DNA of 64,000 nucleotides from a virus. Each line of letters begins with the position of its first letter. Position 1 is the first letter of the stretch. Below are positions 1,885-48,941 of the stretch, one piece after another. The stretch covers positions 62,001 to 126,000 of the IMG/VR virus record IMGVR_UViG_3300031997_000001. One strand, 5' to 3'. The position numbers and the translations under genes were made by a program. The notes below the pieces were generated by a model that did not search any database, had not been told where the DNA came from, and saw nothing but the letters and a program-made list of their open reading frames with translations.

Positions 1885-1887
1885 AGC

Positions 1888-3885: not shown

Positions 3886-3886
3886 C

Positions 3887-4359: not shown

Positions 4360-4401
4360 GACTATAGATTATCTTTGGATTGGACTATGGGCGGGATGCG
4401 G

Positions 4402-5616: not shown

Positions 5617-5619
5617 AGC

Positions 5620-5627
5620 CTATGTAC
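5620..5627 (-). promoter_or_regulatory. Near-match to the GTAAATAG element
   Basis: The minus strand reads GTACATAG-GCT-ATG into the gene starting at 5616. It differs by one base from the exact octamer seen at 491, 43109, 45106 and 50682. The start at 1884 has a looser form, GTATTATAGGCT-ATG. No Shine-Dalgarno is visible between the element and the ATG. Confidence 0.3.
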
Positions 5628-11580: not shown

Positions 11581-11592
11581 AGTTCTCTCTTC

Positions 11593-12249: not shown

Positions 12250-12305
12250 ATGAATCTCCTGAGTTGATAACTTATATACTGTGCGTATGTTGTGCGTGGC
12301 GTGGT

Positions 12306-14809: not shown

Positions 14810-26026
<11,217 letters not shown>

Positions 26027-27153: not shown

Positions 27154-27485
27154 AGTGAGACTCCTACTTCTTTTGCAGCACCCACGAGCTTATCCAACCA
27201 TTGGGTAATTGTATATTGCTGCTTTCTGAGCCTGTAATTTTGGAAAATGATATATACTCTTCTGAGGGCTGAGCCTAATTCTTCCAGCTCCTGCTCCGAC
27301 AGGTGAGCATCCGATATGCGGAGCAGGAGCATGTTCCAGGTCTTGACCAGCAGCTCGCGGAAGAACAGATCGTCGGACCCCGGCGCTAGGGGTCCGACGA
27401 AAGTCTCTGTCACCACGTCCTTGAACAGGTACGTGAGCGCCGTGACGTCCTTGGCCTTCGCGCGGCCTTGGATGAATGCAACTAT
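27150..27485 (-). CDS. Hypothetical helical protein, start uncertain
   Basis: The frame is open from 27617, but the part upstream of 27485 overlaps the holin-like gene and has the Arg-rich look of a shadow. Convincing protein starts at about IVAFIQGRAKAKDVTALTY. No ATG, GTG or TTG is in frame at that point; an ATA overlapping the upstream TAG (ATAG) is in frame, and two GTGs lie further in at 27416 and 27413, just after AAGGA. The C-terminal half is helical (SEQELEELGSALRRVYIIF). Contains a perfect hairpin at 27371-27399. Function unknown. Confidence 0.5.
   Translation of the reverse strand: MVAFIQGRAKAKDVTALTYLFKDVVTETFVGPLAPGSDDLFFRELLVKTWNMLLLRISDAHLSEQELEELGSALRRVYIIFQNYRLRKQQYTITQWLDKLVGAAKEVGVSL
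27371..27399 (-). other. Perfect 11-bp stem hairpin inside a coding region
   Basis: CGTCGGACCCC at 27371-27381 is exactly mirrored by GGGGTCCGACG at 27389-27399 with a 7-base loop. In the minus-strand mRNA this makes a very stable stem-loop coding VGPLAPGSDD. It is not followed by a U-run, so it is not a standard terminator; RNA processing or translational control is possible. Confidence 0.75.
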
Positions 27486-27952
27486 GGCTTCTGCACTGGC
27501 ACCGTAGGGTTTACGCCGGTCTTCTTGAAGACGGCAATGATGTCGTTGATCCGAGGCGCACCCTGCCGGAAGATGGCCTTCAGGACCATCTCGCCGAACG
27601 CCACGATAGCCGCCCACATCGTGGACGCCTCGAGCCAGGTCAGCGTATCAAGTGCGCTGCCCTTGCCGAGCCAGGCACCCACCGCGCCGAGGATCGCCCC
27701 GACCGCGGCAGTGATGACCATGTACTTGACGTCGAACGGCTGCTGGACGTCCGTGGCGATGTCGCGGTTCTTGAGCCAGCCGACGATCGCCGCGATGGCG
27801 CCGCCGAGGGCTCCCATCCCGATCTTGGACCAGATGCTGACGACCGCAGTGGCCGCAGCTCCGGGCGTCCCGGTCACGGCATCCGCGGCGAAGGCGACGA
27901 CCGACACCATCAAGAAAGCCAGAGCCAGCACCGGCAGCTTCACGTACCGCAT
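27482..27952 (-). CDS. Holin-like membrane protein
   Basis: A 156-residue protein with an N-terminal signal-like segment (LPVLALAFLMVSVVAFAADA) and hydrophobic segments IGMGALGGAIAAIVGWL, VITAAVGAILGAVGAWLG and MWAAIVAFGEMVLKAIF, with polar loops. Size, segment count and position at the head of an operon with an exported metalloprotease fit a holin, but holins share little sequence, so this is inference. It is the first gene of the minus-strand run, directly after a divergent promoter region. Confidence 0.55.
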   Translation of the reverse strand: MRYVKLPVLALAFLMVSVVAFAADAVTGTPGAAATAVVSIWSKIGMGALGGAIAAIVGWLKNRDIATDVQQPFDVKYMVITAAVGAILGAVGAWLGKGSALDTLTWLEASTMWAAIVAFGEMVLKAIFRQGAPRINDIIAVFKKTGVNPTVPVQKP

Positions 27953-28063
27953 GTCTCCCTCCCTGAAAAGAGAAAACCGAACAAGATATATTTTCTTACG
28001 GATCTGATCTGGGCTTGTTCCCTTCTCGCTTCAAATATATCAGAGAGTTTGCAAAGGGCACAG
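27953..28063. promoter_or_regulatory. Divergent intergenic region with two facing AAATATATC boxes
   Basis: These 111 bases separate the holin-like operon (minus) from the second giant fibre gene (plus). The minus strand has AAAATATATC at 27985-27994, 32 bases before its ATG; the plus strand has CAAATATATC at 28032-28041, 22 bases before its ATG. An AAAGGG Shine-Dalgarno-like stretch precedes the plus start. Likely a bidirectional promoter region. Confidence 0.5.
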
Positions 28064-31000
28064 ATGATACATTTCTCTTCTGGTACATCAACATCCACGG
28101 AGTCTCTTAATTTCTTACCGAATCCGGCGCTCTGTATCGTCATTGCGAATGACGGCTCTTATCCCATCCAGATAAGACTCAGGTCGAAGAACGGATTTGC
28201 CCTTCAGATCGTGCCGGTCAACTATATTCACAGGATTTCTACCCACGATCATTCTATCGGCATTCAGTCCATCACGGTCGTATCGTCGCATCCGACACCG
28301 TTCAGATTCTGGTGGTCTTCTGATCAGATAATAGAGCCTGCTCCCGAGACGACGAAAACGATAGGAAAATATGTCTTCGTGTTATTTCCCCCCAGCATCA
28401 TCGACGAGGCCAAGGCCAGTCCGTTAATGCCGATCCCCCAACAGCCGATCGGTCGCCAGGGACAACAAGGTTATCAGGGCCAGGGCTACGTCGGCAGAGA
28501 CGGCTGGCAGGGCAGGCAGGGCTGGCAGGGCCCAGTGACTGAGGGCATCCAAGGCCTACAGGGTTATCAGAGCTCTCCGGGCCAGCAGGGTCAGCAGGGC
28601 TGGCAGGGTTGGCAGGGTGTCGGAAACATCGGCGTCGATGGCATGCAGGGAATCCAGGGGCCTATTGGAGCCGGCTATCAGGGCCCCCAGGGCGGAGAAG
28701 GGCTTCAGGGTGGGCAGGGTTCACAAGGCTGGCAAGGGACAGGAGATCCGGGCCTACAAGGCCTCCAGGGTGATGCGGGCCAGCAGGGCTGGCAGGGTCA
28801 GCAAGGCCAGCAGGGTCAACAGGGCTGGCAGGGTTTTGGCGAACCCGGCCTTCAGGGCGTTCAGGGTCAGCAAGGCTGGCAGGGTCAGCAAGGCCAGCAG
28901 GGCGGTCAGGGCTGGCAGGGTGATGCCGGTACGCAGGGCCAGCAGGGTCAACAGGGTAGACAAGGACAGCAGGGCCAGCAAGGCCAGCAGGGCGGTCAGG
29001 GCTGGCAGGGTGATGCCGGTACGCAGGGCCAGCAAGGCAGGCAGGGCCAGCAAGGACAGCAGGGCCAGCAAGGCCAGCAGGGCGGTCAGGGCTGGCAGGG
29101 TGATGCCGGTACGCAGGGCCAGCAAGGCAGGCAGGGCCAGCAAGGCCAGCAGGGTCAACAGGGCTGGCAGGGTTGGCAGGGACTTCAGGGTCTGCAGGGC
29201 CGTCAGGGCCAGCAGGGCCAACAGGGCCAGCAGGGCGGTCAAGGTTGGCAGGGCCAGCAGGGTAGCCAGGGCTGGCAGGGCCTGCAAGGCCTGCAGGGTC
29301 TGCAAGGTCAACAGGGCCAGCAGGGCCAACAAGGTCAACAAGGTCAACAGGGTCAACAAGGTAGGCAGGGCCAGCAGGGCCAGCAGGGCTGGCAGGGCTT
29401 GGAGGGCTCGCAGGGTCTCCAGGGTTATCAAGGCCAACAAGGTCAACAGGGCCAACAGGGTCAACAGGGCTGGCAAGGCGGCGGCGGTCAGGGCTACCAG
29501 GGTCAGCAAGGCTGGCAAGGCTGGCAGGGCCCCATAGCGCCAAGCGGTGAGCAAGGTTACCAAGGCCTGCAGGGTCTCCAGGGTCAGCAAGGCTGGCAGG
29601 GTCCGTCGACTGAAGGCATACAAGGCCTCCAGGGTTATCAGGGCTGGCAGGGCCTACAAGGCTGGCAAGGCCCGTCGACGGAAGGCATACAAGGCCTCCA
29701 GGGCTATCAAGGTCAGCAAGGCCAGCAAGGCCAACAGGGCTACCAAGGCCAGCAGGGTCAACAGGGCCAGCAAGGTGGTCAGGGTTGGCAGGGTCCGGGA
29801 AGCGAAGGAACTCAAGGCCTTCAGGGTTTACAGGGCCTGCAAGGTCAGCAGGGCCAGCAGGGTCAGCAGGGTTGGCAAGGGCTCCAGGGCCTTCAGGGCA
29901 ATCAAGGACTCCAGGGCCAGCAAGGCCAGCAGGGTCAGCAAGGTCAGCAGGGCAGGCAGGGCCAGCAGGGCTGGCAGGGCCTCCAGGGTTTACAAGGTGG
30001 CCAGGGCCAGCAGGGCCAGCAGGGTCAGCAGGGTCAACAGGGCTGGCAGGGCTGGCAGGGACTTCAGGGCTTACAAGGCGTTCAAGGCCAGCAGGGCCAG
30101 CAGGGCTGGCAGGGTCTTGAGGGCTGGCAGGGTCTTCAGGGTCAACAGGGCCAGCAGGGCCAGCAAGGTGGTCAGGGTTACCAGGGTTATCAGGGTCAGC
30201 AGGGTCTTCAGGGTCAGCAAGGTCAACAGGGCTGGCAAGGTAGCGGCGGTCAGGGTTACCAGGGCCAGCAGGGCTGGCAGGGCTGGCAGGGTGCCATAGC
30301 GCCTAGTGGTGAGCAAGGCTATCAAGGCCTGCAGGGCCAGCAGGGCCAGCAGGGTTGGCAGGGTCCGTCAACAGAGGGCATCCAGGGCCTTCAGGGATAT
30401 CAGGGCCAGCAGGGTCAGCAGGGCTGGCAGGGTCCGTCAACAGAGGGAATTCAAGGCCTTCAAGGATATCAGGGCTGGCAGGGCTATCAGGGCCAGCAGG
30501 GCCAGCAGGGCCAGCAAGGTCAACAGGGCGTTCAGGGCCAGCAGGGTCAGCAAGGCCAGCAGGGCCAGCAAGGGTACCAGGGTCTTGGGGGCCTGCAGGG
30601 TCTACAGGGCGTTCAGGGCCAGCAAGGTTGGCAGGGTTGGCAGGGTTATCAAGGCCAGCAGGGTCAGCAAGGCCAGCAGGGCCAACAAGGTTTGCAGGGT
30701 TGGCAAGGACTACAGGGCATTCAGGGCGATGCTGGCACAAGCGCCGGCATGATCCTCTATTTCGACACCGGCGCCAGCGACATAATCACTCCAAAGACTG
30801 GTCCTTCAACGCAGATCTCATTCGCCAATACGAATCCTGACACGATCGTCCGCGGCGATGGCGGCAGCTTCCTTACTGATCTCTGGGTTGCCCGCCAAAA
30901 GGTGAAGGTCACTAATTCGGCCTCTAACAACAGTACATTCCCGATTGCATCCGTGGCAGCCGGTGCTCTAACCCTGTCTGACGCATCGGCGCTCAACATA

Positions 31001-34000
31001 GAAGGAGAAGGGGCAAACGTCACCCTCACCGTCGATAACGAGAAGCTATCTCGTCTGCCGCCGGCGGCTGGTGAGATTGATGAGTCTCAGAGCGTGACCA
31101 GCGCGGACGTGAATGGCGTCCCGATTGACAACTACATCACCGTAGCGACAGTCCCGGGTCAGCTGACAATCCCGGCTGGGGTCTGGGAATTCCACTGCTA
31201 CCATTACGTCGCGGTCGGGTCAGACACGTACTTCAAGTACGAGATCTGCAAGAGGGACACGATCACTGGCATTACGACTGTCATCGATACGACTGGCCCG
31301 ACCGACAACGTGGCGAATGCCGTTACTAGATATGACGTTCAGTGGGTAGTGGCGGCGCCGGTTACGCTCTTGACTACCGACCGGATTGTCGTACGTGTTC
31401 TTGCCTTCACTTCGAGCGCTGCGGCTAGGGCAGCCCACTTCGTCTACCAGGGCAGTTCTCATGCGTCCTGGATCCTGACATCCTTCGGAATTATTCCACC
31501 TCAGGGAGCCCAGGGCTGGCAGGGGCAACAGGGCCAGCAAGGTCAGCAAGGTCAGCAGGGTTGGCAAGGTCTTCAGGGTCTACAAGGCGTACAGGGCCAG
31601 CAAGGTCTTCAAGGTCAGCAGGGCTGGCAGGGCCAACAAGGTCAGCAGGGCTGGCAGGGCCAGCAAGGCTGGCAAGGCTGGCAAGGGCTCCAAGGACTTC
31701 AGGGCCAGCAGGGTCAGCAAGGTCAGCAGGGCCAGCAGGGCTGGCAAGGCCTTCAGGGTCTGCAGGGTGTCCAAGGTCAGCAGGGTCAGCAAGGTCAGCA
31801 GGGCCAGCAAGGCTGGCAAGGCTGGCAAGGGCTCCAAGGACTTCAGGGCCAGCAGGGTCAGCAAGGTCAGCAGGGCCAGCAAGGCTGGCAAGGCTGGCAA
31901 GGGCTCCAAGGACTTCAGGGCCAGCAAGGTCAGCAGGGCCTGCAAGGCGTGCAAGGACTCCAGGGCCAGCAAGGCGTCCAAGGGCAGCAAGGTCAGCAGG
32001 GCCAGCAGGGCTGGCAAGGCCTTCAGGGTCTGCAGGGTGTCCAAGGGCAGCAAGGTCAACAGGGGCAGCAGGGTTGGCAAGGCCTGCAGGGACTCCAGGG
32101 TTATCAAGGATTCCAGGGTCAGCAGGGCCAGCAGGGTGTACAGGGTCAGCAGGGCGGCCAGGGCTGGCAGGGCTGGCAGGGACTACAAGGTAGTCAGGGC
32201 GGGCAGGGTAATCAGGGTTGGCAAGGCCAGCAGGGCTGGCAAGGCGTACAAGGCCAACAGGGCCAGCAAGGGTTCCAGGGCGGTCAAGGCTGGCAAGGTT
32301 GGCAGGGTAATCAGGGTTGGCAAGGTCTTGAGGGCCTTCAGGGACTTCAAGGCCAGCAGGGCCAGCAAGGGTTCCAGGGGCAGCAGGGTTGGCAAGGCCT
32401 GCAGGGACTCCAGGGTTATCAAGGATTCCAGGGTCAGCAGGGCCAGCAGGGTCAGCAAGGCTGGCAAGGCCTCCAGGGTTTACAGGGTCAGCAGGGTCAG
32501 CAGGGCTGGCAAGGAGCATCGGCAGAGGGCATACAGGGTCTGCAGGGTTTCCAGGGTCAGCAGGGTCTGCAGGGCGGCCAGGGTTGGCAGGGTCCCGGAA
32601 GCGAAGGGACTCAGGGCTATCAAGGTCAGCAGGGCCAGCAGGGCCAGCAGGGTCAGCAGGGTTGGCAAGGACTCCAGGGTCTGCAGGGTCTGCAGGGCTA
32701 TCAGGGTCAACAAGGCCAACAAGGCACTCAGGGCCAGCAGGGTGTTCAGGGCCAGCAGGGCTGGCAGGGCTCTGTTGGTGATGGTATTCAGGGCCAGCAA
32801 GGCCAACAAGGTCAGCAGGGTCAGCAGGGTTGGCAAGGACTCCAGGGTCTGCAGGGTTATCAGGGCCAGCAGGGTCAACAAGGCCAACAGGGCCAACAGG
32901 GCGTCCAAGGTCAGCAGGGCCAGCAAGGTGGTCAGGGTTGGCAGGGTTGGCAGGGCTGGCAAGGGCTCCAGGGCCTTCAGGGTGTTCAAGGTCAGCAGGG
33001 TCAACAGGGCCAGCAGGGTCAACAGGGTCAACAGGGTCAGCAAGGCCAGCAGGGCTGGCAAGGCGCTGTTGGCGAAGGCGTACAGGGATTCCAAGGTCTT
33101 CAAGGCGTTCAGGGCCAGCAGGGACAGCAAGGCCAGCAGGGTCAGCAAGGCCAGCAGGGCTGGCAGGGTTCTGGTGGCGATGGCCAGCAGGGCATGCAGG
33201 GTCAACAGGGCATGCAGGGCCAGCAGGGCTGGCAGGGTTCTGGTGGCGATGGCCAGCAGGGCCTTCAGGGTCAACAGGGCATGCAGGGCCAGCAGGGCTG
33301 GCAGGGTTCTGGTGGCGATGGCCAGCAGGGCCTTCAGGGTCAACAGGGCATGCAGGGCCAGCAGGGCTGGCAGGGTTCTGGTGGCGATGGCCAGCAGGGC
33401 CTTCAGGGCCAGCAAGGTCAGCAGGGTGGCCAAGGCTGGCAAGGACTCCAAGGACTGCAAGGTGCACAGGGTTGGCAGGGTCCTACTGCCGAAGGCGTGC
33501 AAGGCCTACAGGGTAGCCAAGGCCAGCAGGGCTGGCAGGGTTCTGGTGGCGATGGCCAGCAGGGCCTGCAGGGTGTACAGGGCCAGCAGGGCCAGCAGGG
33601 CCAGCAGGGTGTGCAGGGCCAGCAAGGTCAGCAAGGATGGCAAGGACTTCAGGGCCAGCAGGGCCAGCAAGGCCAGCAGGGTGTGCAGGGCCAGCAAGGT
33701 CAGCAAGGATGGCAAGGACTTCAGGGCCTGCAGGGTGTGCAAGGCCAGCAGGGTGTGCAGGGTCAGCAGGGCCAGCAGGGCCAGCAGGGTTGGCAGGGCT
33801 GGCAAGGACTTCAGGGCCTGCAGGGTGTGCAGGGCCAGCAGGGCCGGCAGGGACAACAAGGCCAACAAGGCGTTCAGGGCCAGCAGGGCTGGCAAGGACT
33901 CCAAGGCCAGCAAGGTGCGCAGGGCTGGCAGGGTCCAACTGCCGAAGGCGTGCAAGGCCTACAGGGCGTGCAAGGCCAGCAAGGTGCGCAGGGCTGGCAG

Positions 34001-34663
34001 GGTCCAACTGCCGAAGGCGTGCAAGGCCTACAGGGTAGCCAAGGCCAGCAGGGTCAGCAGGGCTGGCAGGGCCGGCAAGGCCAGCAGGGTTATCAAGGCT
34101 TCCAAGGCTACCAGGGCGCTCAGGGCGTCCAGGGCCGGCAGGGCTTCCAAGGTCTCACACAAGGATCGTCATTTATTCTGGGAGCGGCTGGCGGATGGGC
34201 ATCGACAACGAATGGATGCACCGGACCGAATCGTACCGAATTGACTACGAGTAAGTTGAACTATCAGTGTTTGGAATTCGTGCAGGCTGCACAGAAGTAT
34301 GCTGAGTGGACCTGTTATTTGCCAGCGAACTATACTGCGGCGGCAACTATTACCGCGAAATTTATATGGGCCTGTGCAAATGCATCAACCAACAGTGTGG
34401 TGTGGGGTTGCTCGGCGAACTCTTACACAGATGGCGACCCGTTTGATATGACTTTCTCGGCGGGAGTTGAAGTGACGGATGCAAACAACGCGGATAAAGA
34501 CATAAATATCTCTGCCGCTACGGCGGCAATCACGATCAAGCAAGCAGCAAGTTCCCCTGCTGCTGGGCAATTGCTGCACATCAGGGTTTATCGGCTGGGC
34601 AGTGGAGCGGATAACTTAGCTGCATCGGCTTGTCTGCTTCAGGTCATCATTACCTACACATAG
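28064..34663 (+). CDS. Second giant collagen-like fibre (2199 residues)
   Basis: The frame extends back to 27476, but that part is antisense to the holin-like gene; the ATG at 28064 with AAAGGG upstream gives a sensible N-terminus ([17 protein letters not shown]). Layout: an N-terminal domain of about 125 residues; Gly-X-Gln array 1 (to near DNA 30735); a globular insert with [15 protein letters not shown] and [20 protein letters not shown] (30740-31495); array 2 (to about 34160); and a C-terminal beta-rich domain with [19 protein letters not shown], as often seen at phage fibre tips. It shares inserts such as [12 protein letters not shown] with the 3738-residue fibre, so the two are related. 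Probably a homotrimeric fibre. Confidence 0.82.
28450..30735 (+). repeat. 9-bp-unit collagen-like repeat array (plus strand, first block)
   Basis: Tandem GGN-NNN-CAR codons for Gly-X-Gln, with inserts [18 protein letters not shown] and GDAGTQG. It is inverted relative to the array at 19830-25960, the two facing each other across about 2.5 kb. Confidence 0.93.
28901..29160 (+). repeat. 90-bp higher-order tandem repeat
   Basis: The string GGCGGTCAGGGCTGGCAGGG recurs at 28901, 28991 and 29081, an exact spacing of 90 bases, with near-identical intervening sequence coding [16 protein letters not shown]. The 30-residue period keeps the frame and suggests recent local duplication. Confidence 0.85.
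31500..34160 (+). repeat. 9-bp-unit collagen-like repeat array (plus strand, second block)
   Basis: A second Gly-X-Gln array in the same gene, separated from the first by a globular insert. Inserts here are [18 protein letters not shown] and GASAEGIQG. Confidence 0.93.
33167..33415 (+). repeat. 69-bp tandem repeat
   Basis: GGTTCTGGTGGCGATGGCCA begins at 33167, 33236, 33305 and 33374, exactly 69 bases apart. Each unit codes a 23-residue block GSGGDGQQG plus Gly-X-Gln triplets; the fourth unit diverges after its first third. An in-frame length polymorphism is expected here. Confidence 0.85.
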
Positions 34664-34671
34664 GCTGAGTT

Positions 34672-35793
34672 ATGGCAGATCTTGGTGCGTCTCCAGTCAC
34701 GATCAGCGCCACTGCGGCGTACACCATCCCGCTTGGGGTGTACTCACTTCAGGTCGAATGCCAAGGTGGTGCGGCGGCGGGCTCGAATGGTCCGGGAGTA
34801 GCCAAGAGGTCCGGTGGAGGTGGAGGGGGAGGAGCCTATTCGAAGAGGGCGGCAATCAGGGTCATTCCGGGAAAATCATATACATTCACAGTCGGGGTTG
34901 CTGTTGCTGCGGCGTCCCAAAGCAACGGAAACCCGACTACGTTTACTGGAGAGGACGCCGTCGCCTGCACAGCGGCTGGAGGAACTTGTCCTGCGAATCT
35001 TACCACGGGAGGCGCGGGTGGCGCTGTTGTGGCATCTGTTGGGGATGCCGGTGCGATTTTCGCTGGTGGTGCTGGAGGAAATGGATCAACCACCAGCGAT
35101 CAGGGCGGCGGGGGTGGAGGAGAAGGCGCGTATCAAGCGACAGGAAATATTGGACAAAATAACGTAGGAGCAACCGGAGGGGCTGGCGGAACCGGATTGG
35201 CGGGTGGTGGTGACGGCGGAAAGGGAGGGAACAACACGGCTGGCGGTAGTGACGGTGTTGCCCCCGGTGGTGGAGGTGGAGGTGCCGGTGGAAGCAACGA
35301 CTCGGGTGGTGCCGGGGCGACGGGACAGATCATTGTTACTTACACGACCAACGTGACCAGGTCCTTCGGCGGTGGGTATGCTTCTCCGGGCTCGATGGGA
35401 TTCTCACTTCTTCTGGGCCTTCTGGGTCGGTTCTTCTGCAGCCTTTGCTCCGCCAGCAAAGAAATCCCGGATTTCCTGAGCCTGCTCGACGCCTGCGCTA
35501 AAGAGTTCGGGCACGTCAACGTGGGACCCGACGGCGACTACTCCCAGGCCAGCGCAATGATGGAATTCGAACGTCGGGTGCATGACCTTCGCCTCTTCAA
35601 AGAAGCGAGAAACCCCGAATTCTGGATGGACGACTCTCGTGTCGTGAAGCAGTACGATTCCCTGATTGGACATCTTCCCGACCCACTCCCGAAAGTCGTG
35701 CTTCACCGCATCATAGGTATGAAGCCCGTCGATGTGAAGGATGTCGATGTCAGACGGCACCTGGTACGCCGCGGCATCAAAAGTGCAGCGTAA
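34672..35793 (+). CDS. Glycine-rich phage tip/adhesin-like protein with odd C-terminus
   Basis: A 373-residue frame 8 bases after the giant fibre gene. Residues 1-225 match the glycine-rich domain of phage fibre tips: VTISATAAYTIPLGVYSLQVECQ, then GGGGGGAYSK, GGAGGNGSTTSDQGGGGGGEG and a closing strand TGQIIVTYTT. Such proteins normally end soon after this strand. Here the frame runs another 130 residues, almost all antisense to the methyltransferase gene at 35404-36114, and that tail (FCSLCSASKEIPDFLSLL) looks like a shadow. Either the normal end was lost when the convergent gene was placed here, or the extension is real. The N-terminal call is firm, the C-terminus is not. Confidence 0.65.
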   Translation: MADLGASPVTISATAAYTIPLGVYSLQVECQGGAAAGSNGPGVAKRSGGGGGGGAYSKRAAIRVIPGKSYTFTVGVAVAAASQSNGNPTTFTGEDAVACTAAGGTCPANLTTGGAGGAVVASVGDAGAIFAGGAGGNGSTTSDQGGGGGGEGAYQATGNIGQNNVGATGGAGGTGLAGGGDGGKGGNNTAGGSDGVAPGGGGGGAGGSNDSGGAGATGQIIVTYTTNVTRSFGGGYASPGSMGFSLLLGLLGRFFCSLCSASKEIPDFLSLLDACAKEFGHVNVGPDGDYSQASAMMEFERRVHDLRLFKEARNPEFWMDDSRVVKQYDSLIGHLPDPLPKVVLHRIIGMKPVDVKDVDVRRHLVRRGIKSAA

Positions 35794-36114
35794 GAGCTGG
35801 GAGAAGTCGGCGTATTGCTGGTGTGTCGAAAGTAATACGGGGAAGATTCCGTCATAAGGTCCGGTAAAGGCGTCTCCCTTCCAGGTATCCACTCCCCAGC
35901 AACGCGCGGCAAGCCTCAAATATTTTACGGCCTGGCAGAACGCCAGATAGGACCCGCCCTGGAACACGCCCAGCTCGACTATCTTCCCGGGTCTCGTGCG
36001 CTCTACCAGCCACCTCGCGAACGGGATGTGCCCGTACCAGGAGCTCGCATCGATGTTATGCTGGAGTGGGAGGTGGACGGCGTAGGCGGGATGGCCGACG
36101 TAGGGGAGGTTCAC
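35404..36114 (-). CDS. Class I SAM methyltransferase (Methyltransf_24/CmcI-like)
   Basis: A 236-residue protein with KIVELGVFQGGSYLAFCQAV (motif I), CWGVDTWKGD, then DILHIDGLHTYDAVKHDFREW and GIVLLHDTRV, the standard set for this family, found with sugar and antibiotic O-methyltransferases. A Lys/Ala-rich tail (AGGAKAAEEPTQKAQKK) ends the chain. It overlaps the plus-strand glycine-rich frame by 390 bases and the next minus gene by 4. Probably part of the second glycan-modification cluster (35404-41765). Confidence 0.78.
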   Translation of the reverse strand: MNLPYVGHPAYAVHLPLQHNIDASSWYGHIPFARWLVERTRPGKIVELGVFQGGSYLAFCQAVKYLRLAARCWGVDTWKGDAFTGPYDGIFPVLLSTHQQYADFSQLLRCTFDAAAYQVPSDIDILHIDGLHTYDAVKHDFREWVGKMSNQGIVLLHDTRVVHPEFGVSRFFEEAKVMHPTFEFHHCAGLGVVAVGSHVDVPELFSAGVEQAQEIRDFFAGGAKAAEEPTQKAQKK

Positions 36115-36815
36115 AGGGGCAGGTGGCCTCTTCCTATGGTTCTTTCGAATTCTGCCTTGTATTCCGCCTCGTCCAGCCTTGTCTTATAGGGATCTACTGC
36201 CGTCCTATAGAGGCAGACGGCCTCATTTTTCTGAATGTGTCTGCCAATATAACCCTCGGCACCCAGATTTGTCTGTTCAACATCGCGCCAGTTGCGCTGC
36301 CAGAACAAGGCAAAGTTATTCACCCACCAGAAGTTGCCCGCAAAATGCCAGTTCGATCCGCCAAGATTGGGCCAGTCAGTTTGGAAGCAACCAACGGCTG
36401 AATGCGTAGTCAGTATGCTGTCTATGACACTCTGGTTTCCGAGGTTGAACAGGTACATGGCGCCTGTCCAGGCCTTGACGTTCTCCCAATAGAATGGCTC
36501 GCGGGACGACCCCTTGGTGTGCCCGTAGAACGTGATTTCGTCATTCCGGATCGACTGGACCATCGCCAACTTCTCGATGAGCGTCTCAGTCTCCCAGGTC
36601 GGCTTATTCGCCCGGATTAGGAATTCGGCGCTCTTGACGTTGAGATGCTTCCTGACTTCCTCTTCTGTCTCCGTCTTCTCGTCCAGGGCGATCGAGAAGA
36701 CTATTCTATCGAACTGGCTATAGGACTTCCGGAGCTGGTCGACGTTCCATCTCCACATGTCGCCGCCCCAGGGATGGCATGTCGGATAGATGTGGTAGAT
36801 CAGGTTACGACGCAT
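36111..36815 (-). CDS. Probable glycosyltransferase-like protein with HTKG motif
   Basis: A 234-residue protein opening NLIYHIYPTCHPWGGDMWRWN, then ITFYGHTKGSSRE followed by W-x3-W and conserved aromatic residues (SNWHFAGNFWWVN), ending with GAEGYIGRHIQ. The HTKG with nearby W residues recalls RgpF-type rhamnan synthesis proteins and related GT-A-like phage proteins. No clear DxD is seen. The family call is tentative; the position between two sugar-modifying genes supports it. Confidence 0.45.
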   Translation of the reverse strand: MRRNLIYHIYPTCHPWGGDMWRWNVDQLRKSYSQFDRIVFSIALDEKTETEEEVRKHLNVKSAEFLIRANKPTWETETLIEKLAMVQSIRNDEITFYGHTKGSSREPFYWENVKAWTGAMYLFNLGNQSVIDSILTTHSAVGCFQTDWPNLGGSNWHFAGNFWWVNNFALFWQRNWRDVEQTNLGAEGYIGRHIQKNEAVCLYRTAVDPYKTRLDEAEYKAEFERTIGRGHLPL

Positions 36816-37150: not shown

Positions 37151-38080
37151 CTAGGCCAGGTTATGACAACATGTGCCTCGTATGTGCTTGCTAAAATTGC
37201 AGTTGAAGCACATGACCTGATAACCTGGAGGATAATGGCGCTTTATTAGTAAACGATAAAAGTGACTACCGCCGCCTCCGCATTTCTTTCTGTCTGCGGC
37301 GCCATTACCATGAATATGATCAACAGACAAAACATCCATGTCGTCAGCTCCACAACAAACGCACTTGCCATCACCATAGTGATACATAACATTCGCCTTC
37401 ATAAGTGCATGATATTCCGATCTACGGTGTGCGGAGAAGTGCATTTTTATATTGCAATTGTGGCACAATAAGCGTAGATCTTTCGGAAAGCTGTTTTTTA
37501 CGATCCAGCGATACAACCTCAAACCGCGCATGTTGTGTTTTCGCCTTTGCTCGCCACCATTGCTAGTGGTATGATCAATGGCCAGGAAGTCCGGATGTTT
37601 TTCACCACAAACAACGCATTTATCTCCGTAATATTGAAGTATGGTGCCGCGTAGCCTATTCTTATCCGCGACATATTGCACGTGCTTGATATGTGCACGA
37701 GTGTGAACGTACTTTAGGGAGCACTTGATGCAAGTAGGGGCGCGGCCATCATTGCTGGCGTCTTTCTTGTGAAACTGAGTCAGTCGTAATGATCGGCCAC
37801 ATTTGTTGCATTTCTTGGTAGCCTTGTGGTTCTTCCTTTGACATGCTTTACAAGTGATCGATTTTATTCCGCTACGCGTCCGGATGACCAACGAATGGAA
37901 TCGGGTGTTTCCACATCTACACTTGCCGCCAAGCGAACGGATGAGTGCAGCTTTTCTCTCGAAAAACGCCCTGCTGCTTCTCTTTGTCGCAATACCATGG
38001 CATTTCTTACAGCACGCGTACCCTTCATAAAACTTGCCAATGTCAAGCTTCAGCAAGCATTTTGTGCATTTCTTAAGCAT
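37151..38080 (-). CDS. Tandem HNH homing endonuclease
   Basis: A 309-residue, Cys- and Lys-rich protein. The N-terminal half has zinc-knuckle pairs (KKCTKCLLKL; KKCNKCGRSL; TCIKCSL). Two HNH units follow: CVVCGEKHPDFLAIDHTTSNGG...LLCHNCN near residues 156-212, and CVCCGADDMDVLSVDHIHGNG...VMCFNCN near 243-300, each with the H-N(GG) core between Cys pairs. Two complete HNH motifs in one chain are unusual. It sits between cluster genes and overlaps the start of the five-domain glycosyltransferase gene's end by 8 bases. Probably a free-standing mobile endonuclease. Confidence 0.85.
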   Translation of the reverse strand: MLKKCTKCLLKLDIGKFYEGYACCKKCHGIATKRSSRAFFERKAALIRSLGGKCRCGNTRFHSLVIRTRSGIKSITCKACQRKNHKATKKCNKCGRSLRLTQFHKKDASNDGRAPTCIKCSLKYVHTRAHIKHVQYVADKNRLRGTILQYYGDKCVVCGEKHPDFLAIDHTTSNGGEQRRKHNMRGLRLYRWIVKNSFPKDLRLLCHNCNIKMHFSAHRRSEYHALMKANVMYHYGDGKCVCCGADDMDVLSVDHIHGNGAADRKKCGGGGSHFYRLLIKRHYPPGYQVMCFNCNFSKHIRGTCCHNLA

Positions 38081-41000
38081 TCTTGATGAAATCCAGGTCT
38101 TGATGGGCTGTATTGGTATAGATCATTGTGATTTTGTCAGATATGACGCATGGTTCATCTTTCCACCTTGAAACGAACTCGAAGTCATGGCTATAAGAAG
38201 CTTCGGTCCTGTCTTTCCAGAATCCAAATTTTCTCACAAGCCATTTCTTGTGCATCACGGCTGATGTATCCACCCTATATAGTCTTGGCTTGTCGCAGAT
38301 TATATCTACGGATTTAGATCCGTCTGGTTCAACCATCCTAAAGGACCCAAGCGCATAGCTGAAATTCCCACTACTTATTTTTGCATAAAGAGACGACAAA
38401 TGATCTGGTGTATAGATACAATCGTCGTCAAGATAAGCAATGATCTGTCCGGCCGCGTGCATTATTCCGTAATTACGTGGTATAGCCCCGCCGGCCCCAT
38501 GGTTGGTCGGCAGGTTATAGGCGCGGACCTGCGTGCTCAAGACGCCCATCCAGTCTTCCACTTTCAACGATGGGCACTTGTCCCCGACGATAATGACTTC
38601 GAGGTTCGTGTAGTCCTGGGCGAGGATCGAATAGACCGCCTTCTTGAGCAGCTCAGGCCGGTCGTATGTCGGGACGACGACGCTGACCAGCGGCCCGCAG
38701 AAGACCTTCTTGATCCGGTCGTCGTCCAGCCTATCGTAGTCCAGGATAGGCCACTCGGCCCGCACTTTCGCCTTGTAGTCCGCGTCCGTGAAGTAGGGCT
38801 CTGCGGCCATCAGCTTCGAGTAGAAGTCCTCGATGCCGGTCCGCCTCTTCTGATCGTGGAGAACGATCATGTGGCTATTCATCGCGTTCTTGACGAGGAC
38901 TTGGTTGGGCGAACCGATGAGCTTTTCGTGAACCTTGAACGCCCACCTAATGCTCTTCTTGCACCGATAGGCGATAGGCTTCGGGACGAATGTGCGGATC
39001 GATCCGTCCGGATAGACGGCCTGGAGCGGCGAGAGCACGATATCTGCGGCGGTGGACGCCAGGAACTCCCGCAGGTTCTCGATCGTGTGCTGGTCTAGAC
39101 GTTCGTCCGGATCGATCATGACGACCCAGTCGCCCTCGCTGGCGAACTTGTCGGTCGCCATGTTCCTGGCCGTGGCGAAGTCGAAGTTGCGTCCGATGCC
39201 CGTCTCATCGAAGCGGCTACAGTGGACGCCGATGTTCCTGGCCTTCTCTACCGTCTTGTCGCCGGAGCCGGTGTCCAGCATGTGCCAGTCCAGGCTCACG
39301 GATCCGAACTGCTGGAAGTAGCCCTCGATCGAGGCTTCCTCGTCCTTGGCGATGCAGACGATCTTGATCCTCGGGTGCAGCTTCTCATATTTCTGTCGGT
39401 TCGTGTCCATGACTTCATAGACGTTCTTGCCAAGGGCCTGGAACGTCGCATGGCGTTCGTGATTGATCCAGGTACTGGCTACGACCTTGCACTTGATCTT
39501 CTGGGTGCGGGCGCGAGCACAGAAGTCGTCGTCCTCATAAGTCAGCAGGCGCGTGTCGAATCCGCCGATCTTCCAGAAATTGGCCGTCGTCATCATCATG
39601 CAGATGCCGACAACGGCTTCCGGCTCTATATCCGTCGATGGCGTAGCTTCCCTCGGGAGGTCGCCCTGAGGCGGCTTGGCTCGGTTGCAGAAGGGGGCAG
39701 CGATGAAGCCCTCGGAGGCGGCCTTGGCCAGGCGCTGGACGGAGTCGTCGACGAATTCGGCGTCGTCGTTCATGAAGCAGATCATCGGGCGGCTGGCAAA
39801 TCCGGCGCCGTGGTTGCACCCCGCAGCATAACCGATGTTCGTCTCGAGCTTGACGATTTTATCCGCGAGCTTCTGTTCCGCCTCAGTGACCTCGCACCCG
39901 TTGGCGACGAGGATCGTCTCCGAATTCGCGGCGTTAATCTTGATCGACCGCAGGCAGCGCTCGACCAGGAAGTTGTGGCTCGGATTGTGTACGGCCTTGA
40001 GCACGACATAGCTTACATCCCTGGCAGTCATGGCGCTGGAGCCAGTCTGGGTCGTATTCTCGATGTTAAAGTTGTAGTGGTAGAGCGCCCGTTCGATCCG
40101 GACCTGCTTGTCGACGTGTTCCCTCATCCGGATGGACCAGTCGACGTCCTCGGCGACCTGCATTTCCTTGAACTCGCAGCGCCGGGCCAGCTCGGTCCTG
40201 TGGACCATGAGATGGTTCGGCATGCGCTGGAAGATCTCTGGGTCCTTGTTGGAATTGGGGTATTCCTTGCCGTACTTGCAGATCTTATCCTTGCCGCCGG
40301 CGTATCCGTGGACCACCGTGTCAAAAACGACGACGTCCACGCCAGGGTTCTTGCTTATGGCGTCCAGGATGGCATCGACATAATCCGGTTCCACCCTGTC
40401 GTCGTCGTCCACGAAGCAGATGTACTTGCCCTTGGCCTGCTTGACGATCAGGTTTCTCTTCTCGCCGACCTTGCTGACCTTGTTGTCCAGGATGCTCAGG
40501 ACCTCGACGGACTTGCCTTCCGCCTGCTTGACCAGGTCCTCGATGACGTCAGAGTATGACGTCCGGACGCGCGGGGGGATGCCGCAGACGCCGATGGTCA
40601 GCGTGATCTCCTTCTTGACGACAGGATTCAGGCGGTTGTGGTTGACGACGGCGAATTCCTGCAGGTAGAACTGCTGACCATACGCGAGGTGCTGCTGAAT
40701 GGACAGATTCTTGGTGAACGTCGTATTCGTCCAGTTGTCCCGGAACCGGTAGTAGTAAAGCGGCTTGTCGATGTGCAGGCACTTCGACCGCAGGAAGAAC
40801 TTGGCGTAGACGTCCCAGTCGTCTGCGACGGGGATGTTCTGGTTATACCCGCCCAGCTCCCTGAACGTGCGAGCCCTGTAGGCCCTGACGTGGTTGGGGC
40901 CGACCGTCAGGAACCAGCCAAACTGCTGGGTGAAGTGAGGGCCAAACCTATCATAGATGTCTGGGTTGATGCATTCCAGCATCTTCTTGCCGCGATATTC

Positions 41001-41765
41001 GACCCACCTATACTTGGACTTCCAGAAGTCGTCCATGAACTGGTGCGGCTGCCCGTTCTCGAAGTAATTGAACGAGTTCGAGTAGACCATGCCGACTTCC
41101 GGGTCGGATTCGAAGCCCTTCTTCACCTCGTCAAGGCAAGTTTCCATCAGCATGTCGTCGTGGTCCAGCTCGACCAGATATTCGCCGTTGCACAGCCTCG
41201 TGGCCATGCACTTCATCCCGCCGATCTTGCCACAGGGCTTTCCATTTCTATAGGGCCGGACGCGGATGTCTTCCTTTGCGAATTCCTGCAGCTTCTCCCA
41301 GGTGCCATCCGATGAACAGTCGTCGACGACGACCCATTCCCAGTTGTTGTAAGTCTGATCCTTCAGGGACTGATAAGTCTCCCGCAAGTAATCCCCTGTG
41401 TTGTAGGTCGGCGTATAGACGGAGATAAGCGGGTTGTATTTCTGGTTGACGTGCGAACCCCAGACACTGCCGGCGTAGCACTCTTCGATGACCCTTACGA
41501 CGTCATCTATCTTGGCATTCACGTCGACGTTGATCCACTTCTTCCGGATCTCGAAAGCGGACAGATTGAGCGCGCCGGGGATGAAAGTAGAGGTGAGGAT
41601 GACATCCGGCTGGAACTGGGCTATCGTCGATAGGACGTTCGTGGCGTCATCGATATGCTTGACGTTGTAGAGCTTACAGCCCTTATGGGGTACATCCTTC
41701 GTCTCTATGACCGGCAAGTCCCATGGCTTGCCGACCGTCAGGATCTTGACGCCCTGGGTTGCCAT
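38073..41765 (-). CDS. Five-domain GT2 poly-glycosyltransferase (1230 residues)
   Basis: After about 110 residues of a Rossmann-like start (VKILTVGKPW; DVILTSTFIPG) come five GT2-type domains. D1 (112-370): ISVYTPTYNTGDYLRE, VVVDDCSSDGTWE, VELDHDDM. D2 (387-575): YICFVDDDDRVEPDYVDA, VAEDVDWSIRM. D3 (584-796): MICFMNDDAEFVDDSV, LLTYEDDDFCARA. D4 (799-1000): KIVCIAKDEEASIEGYFQ, WVVMIDPDERLDQHT. D5 (1025-1230): VSVVVPTYDRPELLKKA, IIAYLDDDCIYTPDHL. All five keep an acidic metal motif, so all may be active. No transmembrane segment is visible. It could assemble an oligosaccharide or linear polymer on one scaffold, as HAS- or chondroitin-synthase-like enzymes do with two domains. Confidence 0.88.
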   Translation of the reverse strand: MATQGVKILTVGKPWDLPVIETKDVPHKGCKLYNVKHIDDATNVLSTIAQFQPDVILTSTFIPGALNLSAFEIRKKWINVDVNAKIDDVVRVIEECYAGSVWGSHVNQKYNPLISVYTPTYNTGDYLRETYQSLKDQTYNNWEWVVVDDCSSDGTWEKLQEFAKEDIRVRPYRNGKPCGKIGGMKCMATRLCNGEYLVELDHDDMLMETCLDEVKKGFESDPEVGMVYSNSFNYFENGQPHQFMDDFWKSKYRWVEYRGKKMLECINPDIYDRFGPHFTQQFGWFLTVGPNHVRAYRARTFRELGGYNQNIPVADDWDVYAKFFLRSKCLHIDKPLYYYRFRDNWTNTTFTKNLSIQQHLAYGQQFYLQEFAVVNHNRLNPVVKKEITLTIGVCGIPPRVRTSYSDVIEDLVKQAEGKSVEVLSILDNKVSKVGEKRNLIVKQAKGKYICFVDDDDRVEPDYVDAILDAISKNPGVDVVVFDTVVHGYAGGKDKICKYGKEYPNSNKDPEIFQRMPNHLMVHRTELARRCEFKEMQVAEDVDWSIRMREHVDKQVRIERALYHYNFNIENTTQTGSSAMTARDVSYVVLKAVHNPSHNFLVERCLRSIKINAANSETILVANGCEVTEAEQKLADKIVKLETNIGYAAGCNHGAGFASRPMICFMNDDAEFVDDSVQRLAKAASEGFIAAPFCNRAKPPQGDLPREATPSTDIEPEAVVGICMMMTTANFWKIGGFDTRLLTYEDDDFCARARTQKIKCKVVASTWINHERHATFQALGKNVYEVMDTNRQKYEKLHPRIKIVCIAKDEEASIEGYFQQFGSVSLDWHMLDTGSGDKTVEKARNIGVHCSRFDETGIGRNFDFATARNMATDKFASEGDWVVMIDPDERLDQHTIENLREFLASTAADIVLSPLQAVYPDGSIRTFVPKPIAYRCKKSIRWAFKVHEKLIGSPNQVLVKNAMNSHMIVLHDQKRRTGIEDFYSKLMAAEPYFTDADYKAKVRAEWPILDYDRLDDDRIKKVFCGPLVSVVVPTYDRPELLKKAVYSILAQDYTNLEVIIVGDKCPSLKVEDWMGVLSTQVRAYNLPTNHGAGGAIPRNYGIMHAAGQIIAYLDDDCIYTPDHLSSLYAKISSGNFSYALGSFRMVEPDGSKSVDIICDKPRLYRVDTSAVMHKKWLVRKFGFWKDRTEASYSHDFEFVSRWKDEPCVISDKITMIYTNTAHQDLDFIKNA

Positions 41766-45355: not shown

Positions 45356-47991
45356 CAGAAGATGCGAGGGAAGAGGATGACCTGATGTTCTGCGAGGTCC
45401 CCGTGGTAGAAGGTGACCTGTCCGGCCTGGAGCATGGCCAGGAACTGGCTTTCCAGGACGGCATCCTCGACGAATTCGACGTATCCGGAGGTCGGGACGC
45501 CGATCCCTTCCCGGGAGGGCATGAGGACTGGCCAGGCGAGACTGGGGTGGCCGCGCTCATTGAGGAACTTCGCGATGCATTCCGTCGTGGCGCTCTCACC
45601 GCCGCCGCACGATCCGTCAGGCCCGATCGACCGCTTGATGATGGCCCAGGGAGCGCCCATGAATTCGACCACCGCGGAGCAGCAGGCATTGATCCGGAGG
45701 CCGCGGATGTACCAGTCCACCTGGCTGGCGGGCATGAAGCATCCGGGGCCGCTCTTCCGGAAGATGAAGGTGTTGTTCTTGAGGGAGTCGCCGATCCCAG
45801 CTGTGCCCGGCGGGAGGGCGTCCATGTCGCCTTCGTAGACGTCCGTCTGGGCCAGGGTGACGACGGATCCGTCGCTCGAGGCATACCGCAGGCGCTGCAT
45901 GTAGCCGAGGTCCAGGAACTTGATCTTGATCTCCCAGGCCGGATTGACCTGCTGGAGGAATCCCAAGGCGCCGCCCCTGCCGTGGACCGTTATGAGGGTA
46001 TCGCTGTAGACCCACTCCCCGGTAAACTTGTTGCTGAGCTTCGTAAGCTCCCCTGCGTCGTTGAGCGCCAGGATGTTGACCGGCTGGTCGTTGCCGTCGA
46101 TTGAGATCTGGAGGCTGATGGACTTCTGCTGGTCCACGTTCTTCTTGTTCATTACGATGAACATGGACAGCCCGTCAGACCCGTCGTAGAAGAACACGAA
46201 CATCTCGTTCCGGTTCATGATCGGGCCGTAGGTGAGATTCGGGCCCGATTCGTCGCAGTTCGGATCAGCCGGGACGCAGGGTGCTCCGCCGCCCTTTTCC
46301 TTCCCTAGGGAGTAGTTCGTCGCGGCATCCAGCGATCCGAGATAGGGCAGGCCAGCTCCCAGCTGGTTTTCCGGCGCGGTGCCGTCCATATAGACGTCGA
46401 TAATGTCTTCGACGGTATGGCCAGACGTCAGGATGAGTTCCGTGGGCTGCTCGAAGCAACGGGACTGCTTGGCGCAGATGATGACCTCGCCAGAGTTGTC
46501 GTTGCCGAAGGCATCATCCACCCACATCTTGACGGGTCCACCAGGATGATTGAAGGTCAGCGTAAGGCCGACATAGGCCGACGCGGCATCGGCGTTGTTG
46601 TTGAAGTCCCCGAAGTCCGGGAAGTATTCCGTAGTCTTGCCGTACTGGATGGCGGCTCGGCCAGTGTAGCGGCCCGTGTTAAGCGTCTTATTCACGCAGC
46701 AGTTAGTGATCTGGATGGTATAACATCCAGCCGGAAGCGTACCCACTACGGCTGTCTCGGGCGTCAGGTTCTTCTTGCCGTTTATGATGAACTCGACCGC
46801 GCATTCCCTGCATTCCGCAGGGTCGTGCATCGTGGCGGTGCCGGGGACGAGGCAGTTCTTGTCCAGAGCGTCGTAGTTGACCTGCTTGGCGTCGTCCAGG
46901 CCACCCAGGACGACCCTGAGATTGTTCCCGGCTGCGCCGACGGCTATACCTTCGACCCTCTCGCGGGCCCTGGCGTTTCTGGCACGGGTCGTGTAGTTCT
47001 CCAGCGCGCAGCAGATGGCCGCCTTCTGCTGGTTGAAGAGCGTGATCATCCTGTTGAGCCAGGCCTTGACGATCTCTTCCTTCTGGCGCTTGAGCTCGTA
47101 GACGAGCTCCTGGAAGCGCTGGTCGATGGATTGGAGGATGGCGTCGATGTAAAGGAACTTGAGCTTGACGCAGACGCGGCAGCTATACTTGCAGTCAGGG
47201 CTCTTTTCCCGCAGGAAGGTGATGTCCGTAGGCGAGCCGTCCAGGACGACGACCCACGGACTCTTCTTGTCGATAGGGACCACTTCGCTTGGGCAGGCTG
47301 TCGGATTTCCCACGTTGGCCCGCGTCAGGACGAGCTTCCCTTCCTTGTCGCCTTCCAGGGCGGTCACGTCCACGATGGCGAGATTCTTGTCTCCGGAGCG
47401 CTCCGTAGGGACCGGGTCTTCCGTCACGGCCCCGGTAAAAGGCGCATTCTTTCCGCTGGCTCCTATTTCCCCGATGGGCCCTGTGTCAAGCTGGTCGATT
47501 CCGTCGTACCCTGTCTCTCCCTTCTTTCCGGCATCTCCCGTCTTCTGTCTGACCGTCAGGTTTCCGCGCTTTTCTACTTCCTTGAGGAGCTCCTCTATGT
47601 CCAGGCTGAAATCGATGCCATAGACATCCTTGACGACGTTCCATTCGACTGCCGTCTTAACGCCATCAGGGCCTACCAGGTCAAGACTGGTCTCGATCTG
47701 CAGGAAGTTGTCCAGCGACTTCAGGTCGATGATCCCCGAATCGAGCTCCACCGAGCACCCATCGGGCTTGAGCTTGATGACGGGAGGCGGGACGATAAGG
47801 CCCTTCAGCTTCTTGAAGTCCACCCTGTCCATGAGCCCGTCATCAGCCGGCGTGGCAAGGCCGATGGCCGTATAGCCGTCCAGCCTGATCCAGGCGTTGG
47901 CGCTCTTATTGAACTGATAATAGACATCTTTCAAAATTTCATAAATCATTTTGTCGGGCGCGTCAGATGGGAATTTTATGCTGAAGGACAT
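45355..47991 (-). CDS. Probable virion protein with short collagen-like segment (878 residues)
   Basis: I choose the ATG at 47991 (MSFSIKFPSDAPDKMIYEIL, AAGGAAG about 15 bases upstream); the longer frame to 48069 runs through the endonuclease gene. Residues about 151-182 are classical Gly-X-Y triplets (GDAGKKGETGYDG). Then comes LAIVDVTALEGDKEGKLVLT, a long amphipathic stretch near 285-340 that may be coiled coil (FQELVYELKRQKEEIVKAWL), and several Cys-rich beta domains (DPAECRECAVEF). The order triplets, 'IVDV...GKL.VT', coiled coil is the same in the gene at 49003-50673, so they are paralogues. Likely fibre, whisker or baseplate component. Confidence 0.6.
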   Translation of the reverse strand: MSFSIKFPSDAPDKMIYEILKDVYYQFNKSANAWIRLDGYTAIGLATPADDGLMDRVDFKKLKGLIVPPPVIKLKPDGCSVELDSGIIDLKSLDNFLQIETSLDLVGPDGVKTAVEWNVVKDVYGIDFSLDIEELLKEVEKRGNLTVRQKTGDAGKKGETGYDGIDQLDTGPIGEIGASGKNAPFTGAVTEDPVPTERSGDKNLAIVDVTALEGDKEGKLVLTRANVGNPTACPSEVVPIDKKSPWVVVLDGSPTDITFLREKSPDCKYSCRVCVKLKFLYIDAILQSIDQRFQELVYELKRQKEEIVKAWLNRMITLFNQQKAAICCALENYTTRARNARARERVEGIAVGAAGNNLRVVLGGLDDAKQVNYDALDKNCLVPGTATMHDPAECRECAVEFIINGKKNLTPETAVVGTLPAGCYTIQITNCCVNKTLNTGRYTGRAAIQYGKTTEYFPDFGDFNNNADAASAYVGLTLTFNHPGGPVKMWVDDAFGNDNSGEVIICAKQSRCFEQPTELILTSGHTVEDIIDVYMDGTAPENQLGAGLPYLGSLDAATNYSLGKEKGGGAPCVPADPNCDESGPNLTYGPIMNRNEMFVFFYDGSDGLSMFIVMNKKNVDQQKSISLQISIDGNDQPVNILALNDAGELTKLSNKFTGEWVYSDTLITVHGRGGALGFLQQVNPAWEIKIKFLDLGYMQRLRYASSDGSVVTLAQTDVYEGDMDALPPGTAGIGDSLKNNTFIFRKSGPGCFMPASQVDWYIRGLRINACCSAVVEFMGAPWAIIKRSIGPDGSCGGGESATTECIAKFLNERGHPSLAWPVLMPSREGIGVPTSGYVEFVEDAVLESQFLAMLQAGQVTFYHGDLAEHQVILFPRIF

Positions 47992-48941
47992 AACCAGGGG
48001 CGCTTCCTTTTGAGGCCGAACGATTCGTGCTCGCAGAGCCAACTCATTATTTTTGTAGCATTCGCGCATCCACTTATGTTCAAGTAATATATACTTTGTT
48101 TTACCAAGGATTTCTTGGTTATCTTAAAACCCGCCTGGCGTAGGATGTACAAGAATTTTACCAAAATAGCCTTATATCGGCAGCACCACATCATCTTATA
48201 CGCAACTTTTGTTTTTTTTCTGTGCGCCCGATAACAGGAACCATCTCCGTCCAAATAACCGCGCAAGAAATCGTTCTTGAACGGAATCTTTCCGATGGGA
48301 ATAGCATTGCCGGCTTTTATCTGCAAGAAACCATGCTTTATGAGATCGGTACAGATTTGTATGGATCCCATGCGCAACATCGCAGTCTTTGTATTCTTTT
48401 TGAAAGGGGTATCATATTCATAAAATCCTATTTTATTCGACGATTTGAGATCATATTGGAGAGCCTCAAGAATGCATTTGTCTTTTAATGCCAAGTGGAT
48501 AGACAGATGCCTGCGCTTGCTCACTCCTGCCGGAATGCTCCCATCTGCACAAAGAAATCCAAACCAATAGCATTTCCTGGGAGTATCCAAATCTTTAAAG
48601 AAAGTAACATTGGCAGTTTTCCTTGCTGGCGGATTTCGCAATTTTATTCCGATTTTGCACAATCTTTCTCTCAACGTTGTGTCATCAACGCCAAAAGAGC
48701 TGGAGATTCTACCAAGGCTTTCACCTCGTTTATAGCGTCGCGCCGCTTCCAGCACGTCTTTTGGTTTTAATTTGCTGATCTGCAGATAGATGTCTCGTCT
48801 TGGGATTCTTTCTCTCTGCAGGAGCCTGTAGACTCCAGCTATTGAACAGTGCATCGCTTTTGCGGTTCTTGGTCCGGTTAAACCTCCTACATAGAGACTT
48901 ATTATCTTCTGTTTTTCTTCTGGCGAAAAGGGTGCTACCAT
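47976..48941 (-). CDS. Free-standing LAGLIDADG homing endonuclease
   Basis: A 321-residue protein. The N-terminus carries helix-turn-helix-like repeats (PEEKQKIISLYVGGLTGPRT; RYKRGESLGRISSSFGVDDT). The LAGLIDADG helices are YWFGFLCADGSI near residue 121 and FLRGYLDGDGSC near 226, followed by a saddle-like basic region. The coding DNA is visibly A+T-richer than both flanking genes, showing recent arrival. It lies between two paralogous virion genes and overlaps the start of one by 16 bases. An AAGGGATGA precedes its ATG. Confidence 0.88.
   Translation of the reverse strand: MVAPFSPEEKQKIISLYVGGLTGPRTAKAMHCSIAGVYRLLQRERIPRRDIYLQISKLKPKDVLEAARRYKRGESLGRISSSFGVDDTTLRERLCKIGIKLRNPPARKTANVTFFKDLDTPRKCYWFGFLCADGSIPAGVSKRRHLSIHLALKDKCILEALQYDLKSSNKIGFYEYDTPFKKNTKTAMLRMGSIQICTDLIKHGFLQIKAGNAIPIGKIPFKNDFLRGYLDGDGSCYRAHRKKTKVAYKMMWCCRYKAILVKFLYILRQAGFKITKKSLVKQSIYYLNISGCANATKIMSWLCEHESFGLKRKRPWLCPSA

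Follow-up and report, generated by a model that had tools for sequence, protein, structure and literature searches.

Can one phage protein carry out five successive sugar transfers? The question is raised by a reading frame of 1230 codons (ATG to stop) at positions 38073-41765, on the reverse strand, of the 64,000-nucleotide stretch of viral DNA analysed here (the window). The window spans positions 62,001 to 126,000 of a 235,458-base IMG/VR virus record (IMGVR_UViG_3300031997_000001). An initial annotation had claimed that the 1230-aa product holds five GT2 glycosyltransferase domains in a row, each with an acidic metal motif. Based on the open reading frame list, Pfam matches and hydropathy, that description stands. 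When the five segments were scanned separately against Pfam PF00535 (curated cut-off, 23.3 bits), each passed alone, at 95.1 bits for D1, 36.4 for D2, 33.1 for D3, 28.7 for D4 and 81.3 for D5; all five are above the cut-off, and therefore none is a chance match. A DxD-type metal motif was found in all five domains.

Domain architecture and predicted folds

All segments of the protein are given by their window positions on the reverse strand. Residues 1-110 (41436-41765) have no Pfam match and weakly resemble the stretch that precedes the D1-like domain in phage glycosyltransferases of about 620 aa; they make up an additional segment without a glycosyltransferase match, which amends the five-domain description. 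D1 (40626-41435) is, by Pfam and its relatives, a TuaG/chondroitin-synthase-like GT2 domain with DHDD at residues 201-204 and ADDWD at 314-318. D2 (40032-40610), recognized by profile and homologues as a GT2 domain of the PHROG 14775 type, carries GEKRN, DDDD (453-456) and AED (538-540). D3 and D4 were assigned from Pfam, homologues and a structural model: D3 (39381-40019) is GT2/GT7C-like and has NDD (666-668), YEDDD (743-747) and a histidine at 769, and D4 (38730-39380) is a SunS/ThuS/GmaR-like GT2 domain with DTGS, DPDER (885-889) and VHE (945-947). D5 (38076-38696), defined by Pfam and composition, is a GT2 domain with DDD (1113-1115) and SHD (1192-1194), and its C-terminal two thirds are foreign in composition.

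The motifs of D2, D3 and D4 are invariant or nearly so among independent homologues of 22-30% identity. Those of D2 (GEKRN, DDDD, ED) and D3 (N-D, D, H) are kept in Gordonia phage and bacterial homologues at about 28% identity, and those of D4 (DTGSxD, DxDE and W...HE) vary little or not at all across 16 phage sequences. In D1 and D5, conservation of the key aspartates of the DxD is 90-100% among relatives. The expectation that every domain pairs its DxD with a catalytic Asp/Glu holds in full for D2 and D3, in which the acidic base is conserved, while D4 has VHE, the motif typical of its subfamily. The ADDWD of D1 is present at the catalytic-base position and the SHD of D5 falls opposite the ED of L092, a compact phage glycosyltransferase, in both cases in an alignment column that relatives cover thinly. 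All five GT2 domains apparently look intact.

Since a composite alignment of the whole protein stacked rows of several domains on D2, the structures of D2-D3 and D4 were predicted separately. The AlphaFold models had a mean pLDDT of 74 for D2-D3 and 67 for D4, with a confident GT-A core in both and a weak C-terminal half in D4. Among solved structures, D2-D3 came closest to the bifunctional chondroitin polymerase K4CP and to heparosan synthase, and D4 to SunS and ThuS. Structure prediction thus bears out a GT-A fold for D2-D3 and D4, and sequence relationships predict the same fold for D1 and D5. Hydropathy along the 1230-aa protein reaches a maximum of 1.38, with no window above 1.6 and none over the usual membrane threshold, and the best explanation is a soluble, presumably cytoplasmic glycosyltransferase without a transmembrane segment.

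Domain lineages and the origin of the fusion

Internal duplication was considered as the origin of the array and rejected, since the domains align with one another only in part, at low identity (about 20-40%), and the nearest relatives differ domain by domain. D1 to D5 are, as judged from these comparisons, five distinct lineages and not copies. Five separate lineages favour different successive transfers over one duplicated activity.

D1, together with part of the N-terminal segment, resembles the C-terminal half of the phage proteins of about 620 aa, and its best sequence match is among K4CP and heparosan synthase. D2 occurs as free-standing genes of about 190 aa in many phages and in Bacillales. 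A Paenibacillus frame of 649 aa (L221:6621-8567) has a D2-type domain at its C-terminus, and its first 450 or so residues have no Pfam match. In Neobacillus, a D3-like gene adjoins a D2-like gene, and in Gordonia phages the two are fused: Forza gp93 and Phendrix gp79 match D2+D3 at about 28% identity with the catalytic motifs conserved, but they consist of two domains (about 440 aa) and lack D1, D4 and D5. In both phages, this gene is flanked by the head-to-tail adaptor gene on one side and tail genes on the other. D5 resembles PglI/TarP-type enzymes.

Relatives of D4 are found in the jumbo phages Lu11, Y3, HRDY3 and NCTB. Its best match by sequence is GmaR, and SunS/ThuS and GmaR are its nearest solved relatives, although each of these couples one catalytic domain to other accessory parts and the identity to D4 is only about 20-25%. 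The substrates of the S-glycosyltransferases SunS/ThuS and of GmaR are peptides or proteins. D4 might be a peptide glycosyltransferase of this kind, a suggestion made by resemblance only.

Six adjacent small genes in two phage contigs (L214:7835-12059 and L215:3592-7815) are D3-, D3-, D3-, D2-, D2- and D5-like, with glycosyltransferase Pfam matches in four of the six. This GT2-like array is an unfused counterpart of the five-domain protein, and derivation of the fusion from single-domain glycosyltransferase genes is probably the best explanation. Running from unfused arrays through two-domain fusions to the five-domain protein, the series illustrates how assembly lines of this kind arise. No full-length homologue of the 1230-aa protein was found in INPHARED, PLSDB or IMG/VR.

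A chimeric fifth domain beside an HNH gene

The start codon of the five-domain gene is also the end point of a small open reading frame, and its stop codon overlaps by 8 bases the start of a free-standing, homing-type, low-GC HNH endonuclease gene (37151-38080, reverse strand). Over the first 1090 or so codons, GC3 is about 0.8 and matches the neighbouring genes. At about codon 1093 (near window position 38486), inside D5, it drops from 0.83 to 0.44, and the likelihood gain observed for this switch was reached in none of 5000 block permutations. The low-GC3 tract comprises codons 1094-1230 of D5 (38076-38486, reverse strand; composition and codon usage), runs on through the HNH gene and stops there. 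Its codons fit the two other low-GC endonuclease-type genes of the window (+0.61 bit per codon), and the first part of D5 fits phage core genes (-0.71 bit per codon). Those two genes, a LAGLIDADG-like gene (47976-48941, reverse strand) and an HNH/Mom-like gene (56292-57857, forward strand), are each flanked by high-GC genes. D5 is a compositional chimera, a feature that the initial annotation missed, as it did the phage origin of the protein.

Since the low GC3 of D5 extends through the adjoining HNH gene, homing with co-conversion is suggested as the process that made D5 chimeric. An endonuclease gene here adjoins a glycosyltransferase gene whose flank has the same foreign composition, as co-conversion would leave it. 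The simplest reading, in which we infer the event from these traces, is that the end of the D5 coding region and the HNH gene were acquired together. Reading frame and domain spacing are both intact across the junction, which makes a misassembly unlikely. Cultured phages encode HNH endonucleases homologous to the product of 37151-38080, which has no relatives in IMG/VR, and in the Gordonia phage JonJames an HNH gene stands directly before the D2+D3 gene, after another glycosyltransferase. No close relative with an alternative D5 allele was found in IMG/VR, and the related record G022 (below) does not span the locus. The chimera points to a route whereby mobile endonuclease genes could diversify sugar specificity.

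Genomic setting and candidate acceptors

The source record encodes a RecA, identified by sequence and viral relatives, as well as a DnaB-like helicase, tail-fibre-like proteins and very long collagen-like proteins. The terminase family PF03237 has no match in the 235-kb record. We call the virus a phage on the basis of the IMG/VR classification, the RecA, the DnaB-like helicase, the tail-fibre matches and the phage kinship of single proteins; the large-terminase and capsid genes were not located. The 107-kb record G022, mostly 90-99% identical to the source record where aligned, overlaps only 174.8-235.4 kb of it, a span outside which the five-domain gene lies. As G022 runs beyond the end of the source record, the genome is larger than the record.

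The initial annotation had pictured an assembly line without other scaffolds, which is not borne out: the phage has many free-standing glycosyltransferases, methyltransferases and one sugar-nucleotide enzyme. PF00535 matches 13 sites of the record. In the window, positions 491-12642 (reverse strand) form a glycan island with GT25, GT8, GT31-like, sugar C-methyltransferase, triple methyltransferase, GT4, intein-bearing GT4 and weak GT2-like genes. The protein at 5627-7300 (reverse strand) has three tandem SAM-methyltransferase stretches, and the GT4 gene at 9184-11580 (reverse strand) is split by an intein with Hint, LAGLIDADG and splicing domains. Inteins are uncommon except in nucleic-acid enzymes. 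Another island, at about 137-145 kb in record coordinates, combines two radical SAM genes with methyltransferases and a hexapeptide transferase. The sole PF01370 match in the record is a GDP-mannose 4,6-dehydratase, which also passes TIGR01472. Downstream of the five-domain gene, on the same strand, lies a gene for a 234-aa protein (36111-36815) that is glycosyltransferase-like by eye only, with no significant family and no relatives in IMG/VR. It is followed by a Methyltransf_24/TylF-like methyltransferase gene (35404-36114, reverse strand; Pfam) with a possible role in sugar O-methylation.

Two collagen-like fibre genes lie further along the window. One encodes a protein of 3738 aa with 19 Pfam Collagen stretches (14810-26026, reverse strand), and the other, a GQQGWQG-type fibre reading frame whose true start may be internal (27476-34663, forward strand), is a candidate virion acceptor. 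GQQGWQG triplets are abundant in the collagen-like stalks, together with many WxxW motifs. The Gly-X-Y stalks hold 11 Ser+Thr and 1 Lys in 1998 residues, and 31 Ser+Thr and no Lys in 1536. A stalk nearly devoid of Ser, Thr and Lys makes ordinary O-linkage there unlikely, and the collagen stalk was for this reason set aside as an O-glycan acceptor; the acceptor would instead be the non-collagenous domains or other virion proteins.

Of 21 distinct viral clusters with a D1 relative, 9 had a collagen-like reading frame no more than 8 kb from it, compared with none of 20 D2 loci with an equal 8-kb flank (Fisher p of about 0.001 against D1). Among RecA control loci, whose flanks were shorter than those of D1, none of 49 had such a frame, and at D4 loci with 4-kb flanks the count was 3 of 15. 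In one D1-bearing contig, the collagen frames are about 50 kb distant. Since tail regions gather many variable genes, the association between D1 and collagen-like genes is suggestive only.

Proposed function and alternatives

The preferred reading, which we hold tentatively, is that the fused five-GT2 protein builds an oligosaccharide stepwise on phage virion or fibre proteins. Each module would transfer one sugar from a nucleotide sugar with the use of a divalent metal, and the five in turn would lengthen an oligosaccharide, in an order that we can only infer. The SunS/ThuS/GmaR-like D4 is the foremost candidate for attaching the first sugar to the protein; the other modules may then extend the D4-primed sugar, and phage methyltransferases could cap the finished oligosaccharide. 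The acceptor would be a phage virion protein, of the capsid or the tail, or else a collagen-like fibre modified in its non-collagenous domains. Support comes from the motif-bearing domains, the occurrence of the modules as separate genes elsewhere, and the many glycosyltransferases, the methyltransferases and the GDP-mannose 4,6-dehydratase of the record. A virion target is suggested by the D2+D3 fusion inside Gordonia structural blocks and by the collagen-like frames near D1 relatives. Glycans on the capsid and tail tube of mycobacteriophages have been reported (Freeman 2023, as cited in PMC12619734). The five-sugar assembly line of the initial annotation is thus kept as a stepwise builder, the best reading, with the activities, sugars, order and acceptor remaining predictions.

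Partial exchange of D5 with the HNH gene could alter the last sugar or its linkage. A more far-reaching picture is very doubtful as a whole: within one chain, D4 would prime a virion protein and the remaining domains would complete a defined pentasaccharide, while the acceptor half of D5 would be exchanged through the adjacent homing endonuclease, making the terminal sugar switchable by gene conversion. If active, the protein would be a compact, soluble, multi-step phage glycan synthase with up to five successive transfers per protein, useful in glycoengineering and for understanding how phage particles are coated.

The main rival, which we consider possible but unlikely, is that the enzyme alters the host surface (O-antigen, capsule or teichoic acid) during infection, for example to block competing phages. 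Glycosyltransferase clusters of jumbo phages are customarily interpreted in this way (PMC7824862); D1 and D5 resemble TuaG, WcaA and TarP-type transferases of surface polymers, and LPS-type GT25 and GT8 genes lie nearby. However, the five-domain protein has no membrane segment, D4 resembles transferases acting on proteins or peptides, and the Gordonia D2+D3 fusion is located among virion genes. In addition, a non-exhaustive scan of the proteins turned up no flippase, polymerase or lipid-carrier initiating transferase.

That only part of the domains is active, the rest serving as acceptor-binding or scaffold modules or D5 having been damaged by the exchange, is in our view rather improbable. 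Inactive GT-A domains do occur, the Pfam scores of D2, D3 and D4 are modest, and two compositions meet within D5. Yet the DxD and catalytic motifs are retained, with those of D2-D4 invariant or nearly so in distant homologues, and D5 retains its DDD as well as an Asp that pairs with the ED of L092 in the alignment.

Glycosylation of hypermodified phage DNA is highly improbable. Phage glycosyltransferases that act on DNA exist (Pyle 2024, as cited in PMC12619734), a dUTPase gene stands two genes upstream of the five-domain gene, and the Mom-like/HNH gene is within the window; however, the domains match glycan and protein glycosyltransferases rather than DNA glycosyltransferases, and the thymidylate synthase/dCMP hydroxymethylase family is absent from the record, which is incomplete.

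Comparison with other multidomain glycosyltransferases

Virus-encoded glycan enzymes with several glycosyltransferase domains are already known, and the statement that multidomain synthases usually have two proved too narrow. The protein described here combines five GT2 domains of distinct origins in a phage. No viral protein with more than five such domains was found in the collections and literature searched, and the next is Tupanvirus R496, with four predicted domains, followed by Megavirus mg539 with three (PMC9614988). Both are multi-glycosyltransferase proteins of viral glycan clusters, but they belong to giant viruses of amoebae and are likened to the phage protein by domain number, not domain type. 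In PBCV-1, A111/114R (three glycosyltransferase domains) and A064R (two plus a methyltransferase) build capsid glycans and, as proposed for the phage protein, extend a virion glycan sugar by sugar, independently of host organelles (PMC7826918). They differ in coming from a eukaryotic virus, with three domains and other glycosyltransferase families, whereas the phage has five GT2 domains and a separate downstream methyltransferase gene.

K4CP and PmHS2 likewise have tandem GT2 modules in one chain, and they are nearest to D2-D3 in fold and to D1 in sequence, but they have two domains and make a repeating polymer; the two alternating GT2 domains of K4CP/PmHS-type synthases are replaced here by five domains of different lineages. 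Despite K4CP and heparosan synthase being the best neighbours of these domains, a repeating polysaccharide made by several alternating domains in chondroitin/heparosan-synthase style has very little probability, as synthases of the K4CP type alternate two activities, a defined oligosaccharide fits five lineages better and no export partner was seen. Streptococcal dGT1 of the Fap1 pathway also combines two domains for consecutive steps on a protein-bound glycan, but there are only these two and one is a DUF1792 domain (PMC5207161). A single frame of a Bacteroidetes MAG (L255:5630-15736) encodes a 3369-aa protein with four GT2 and two GT4 domains, although this protein is bacterial, contains many TPR stretches and has another domain order.
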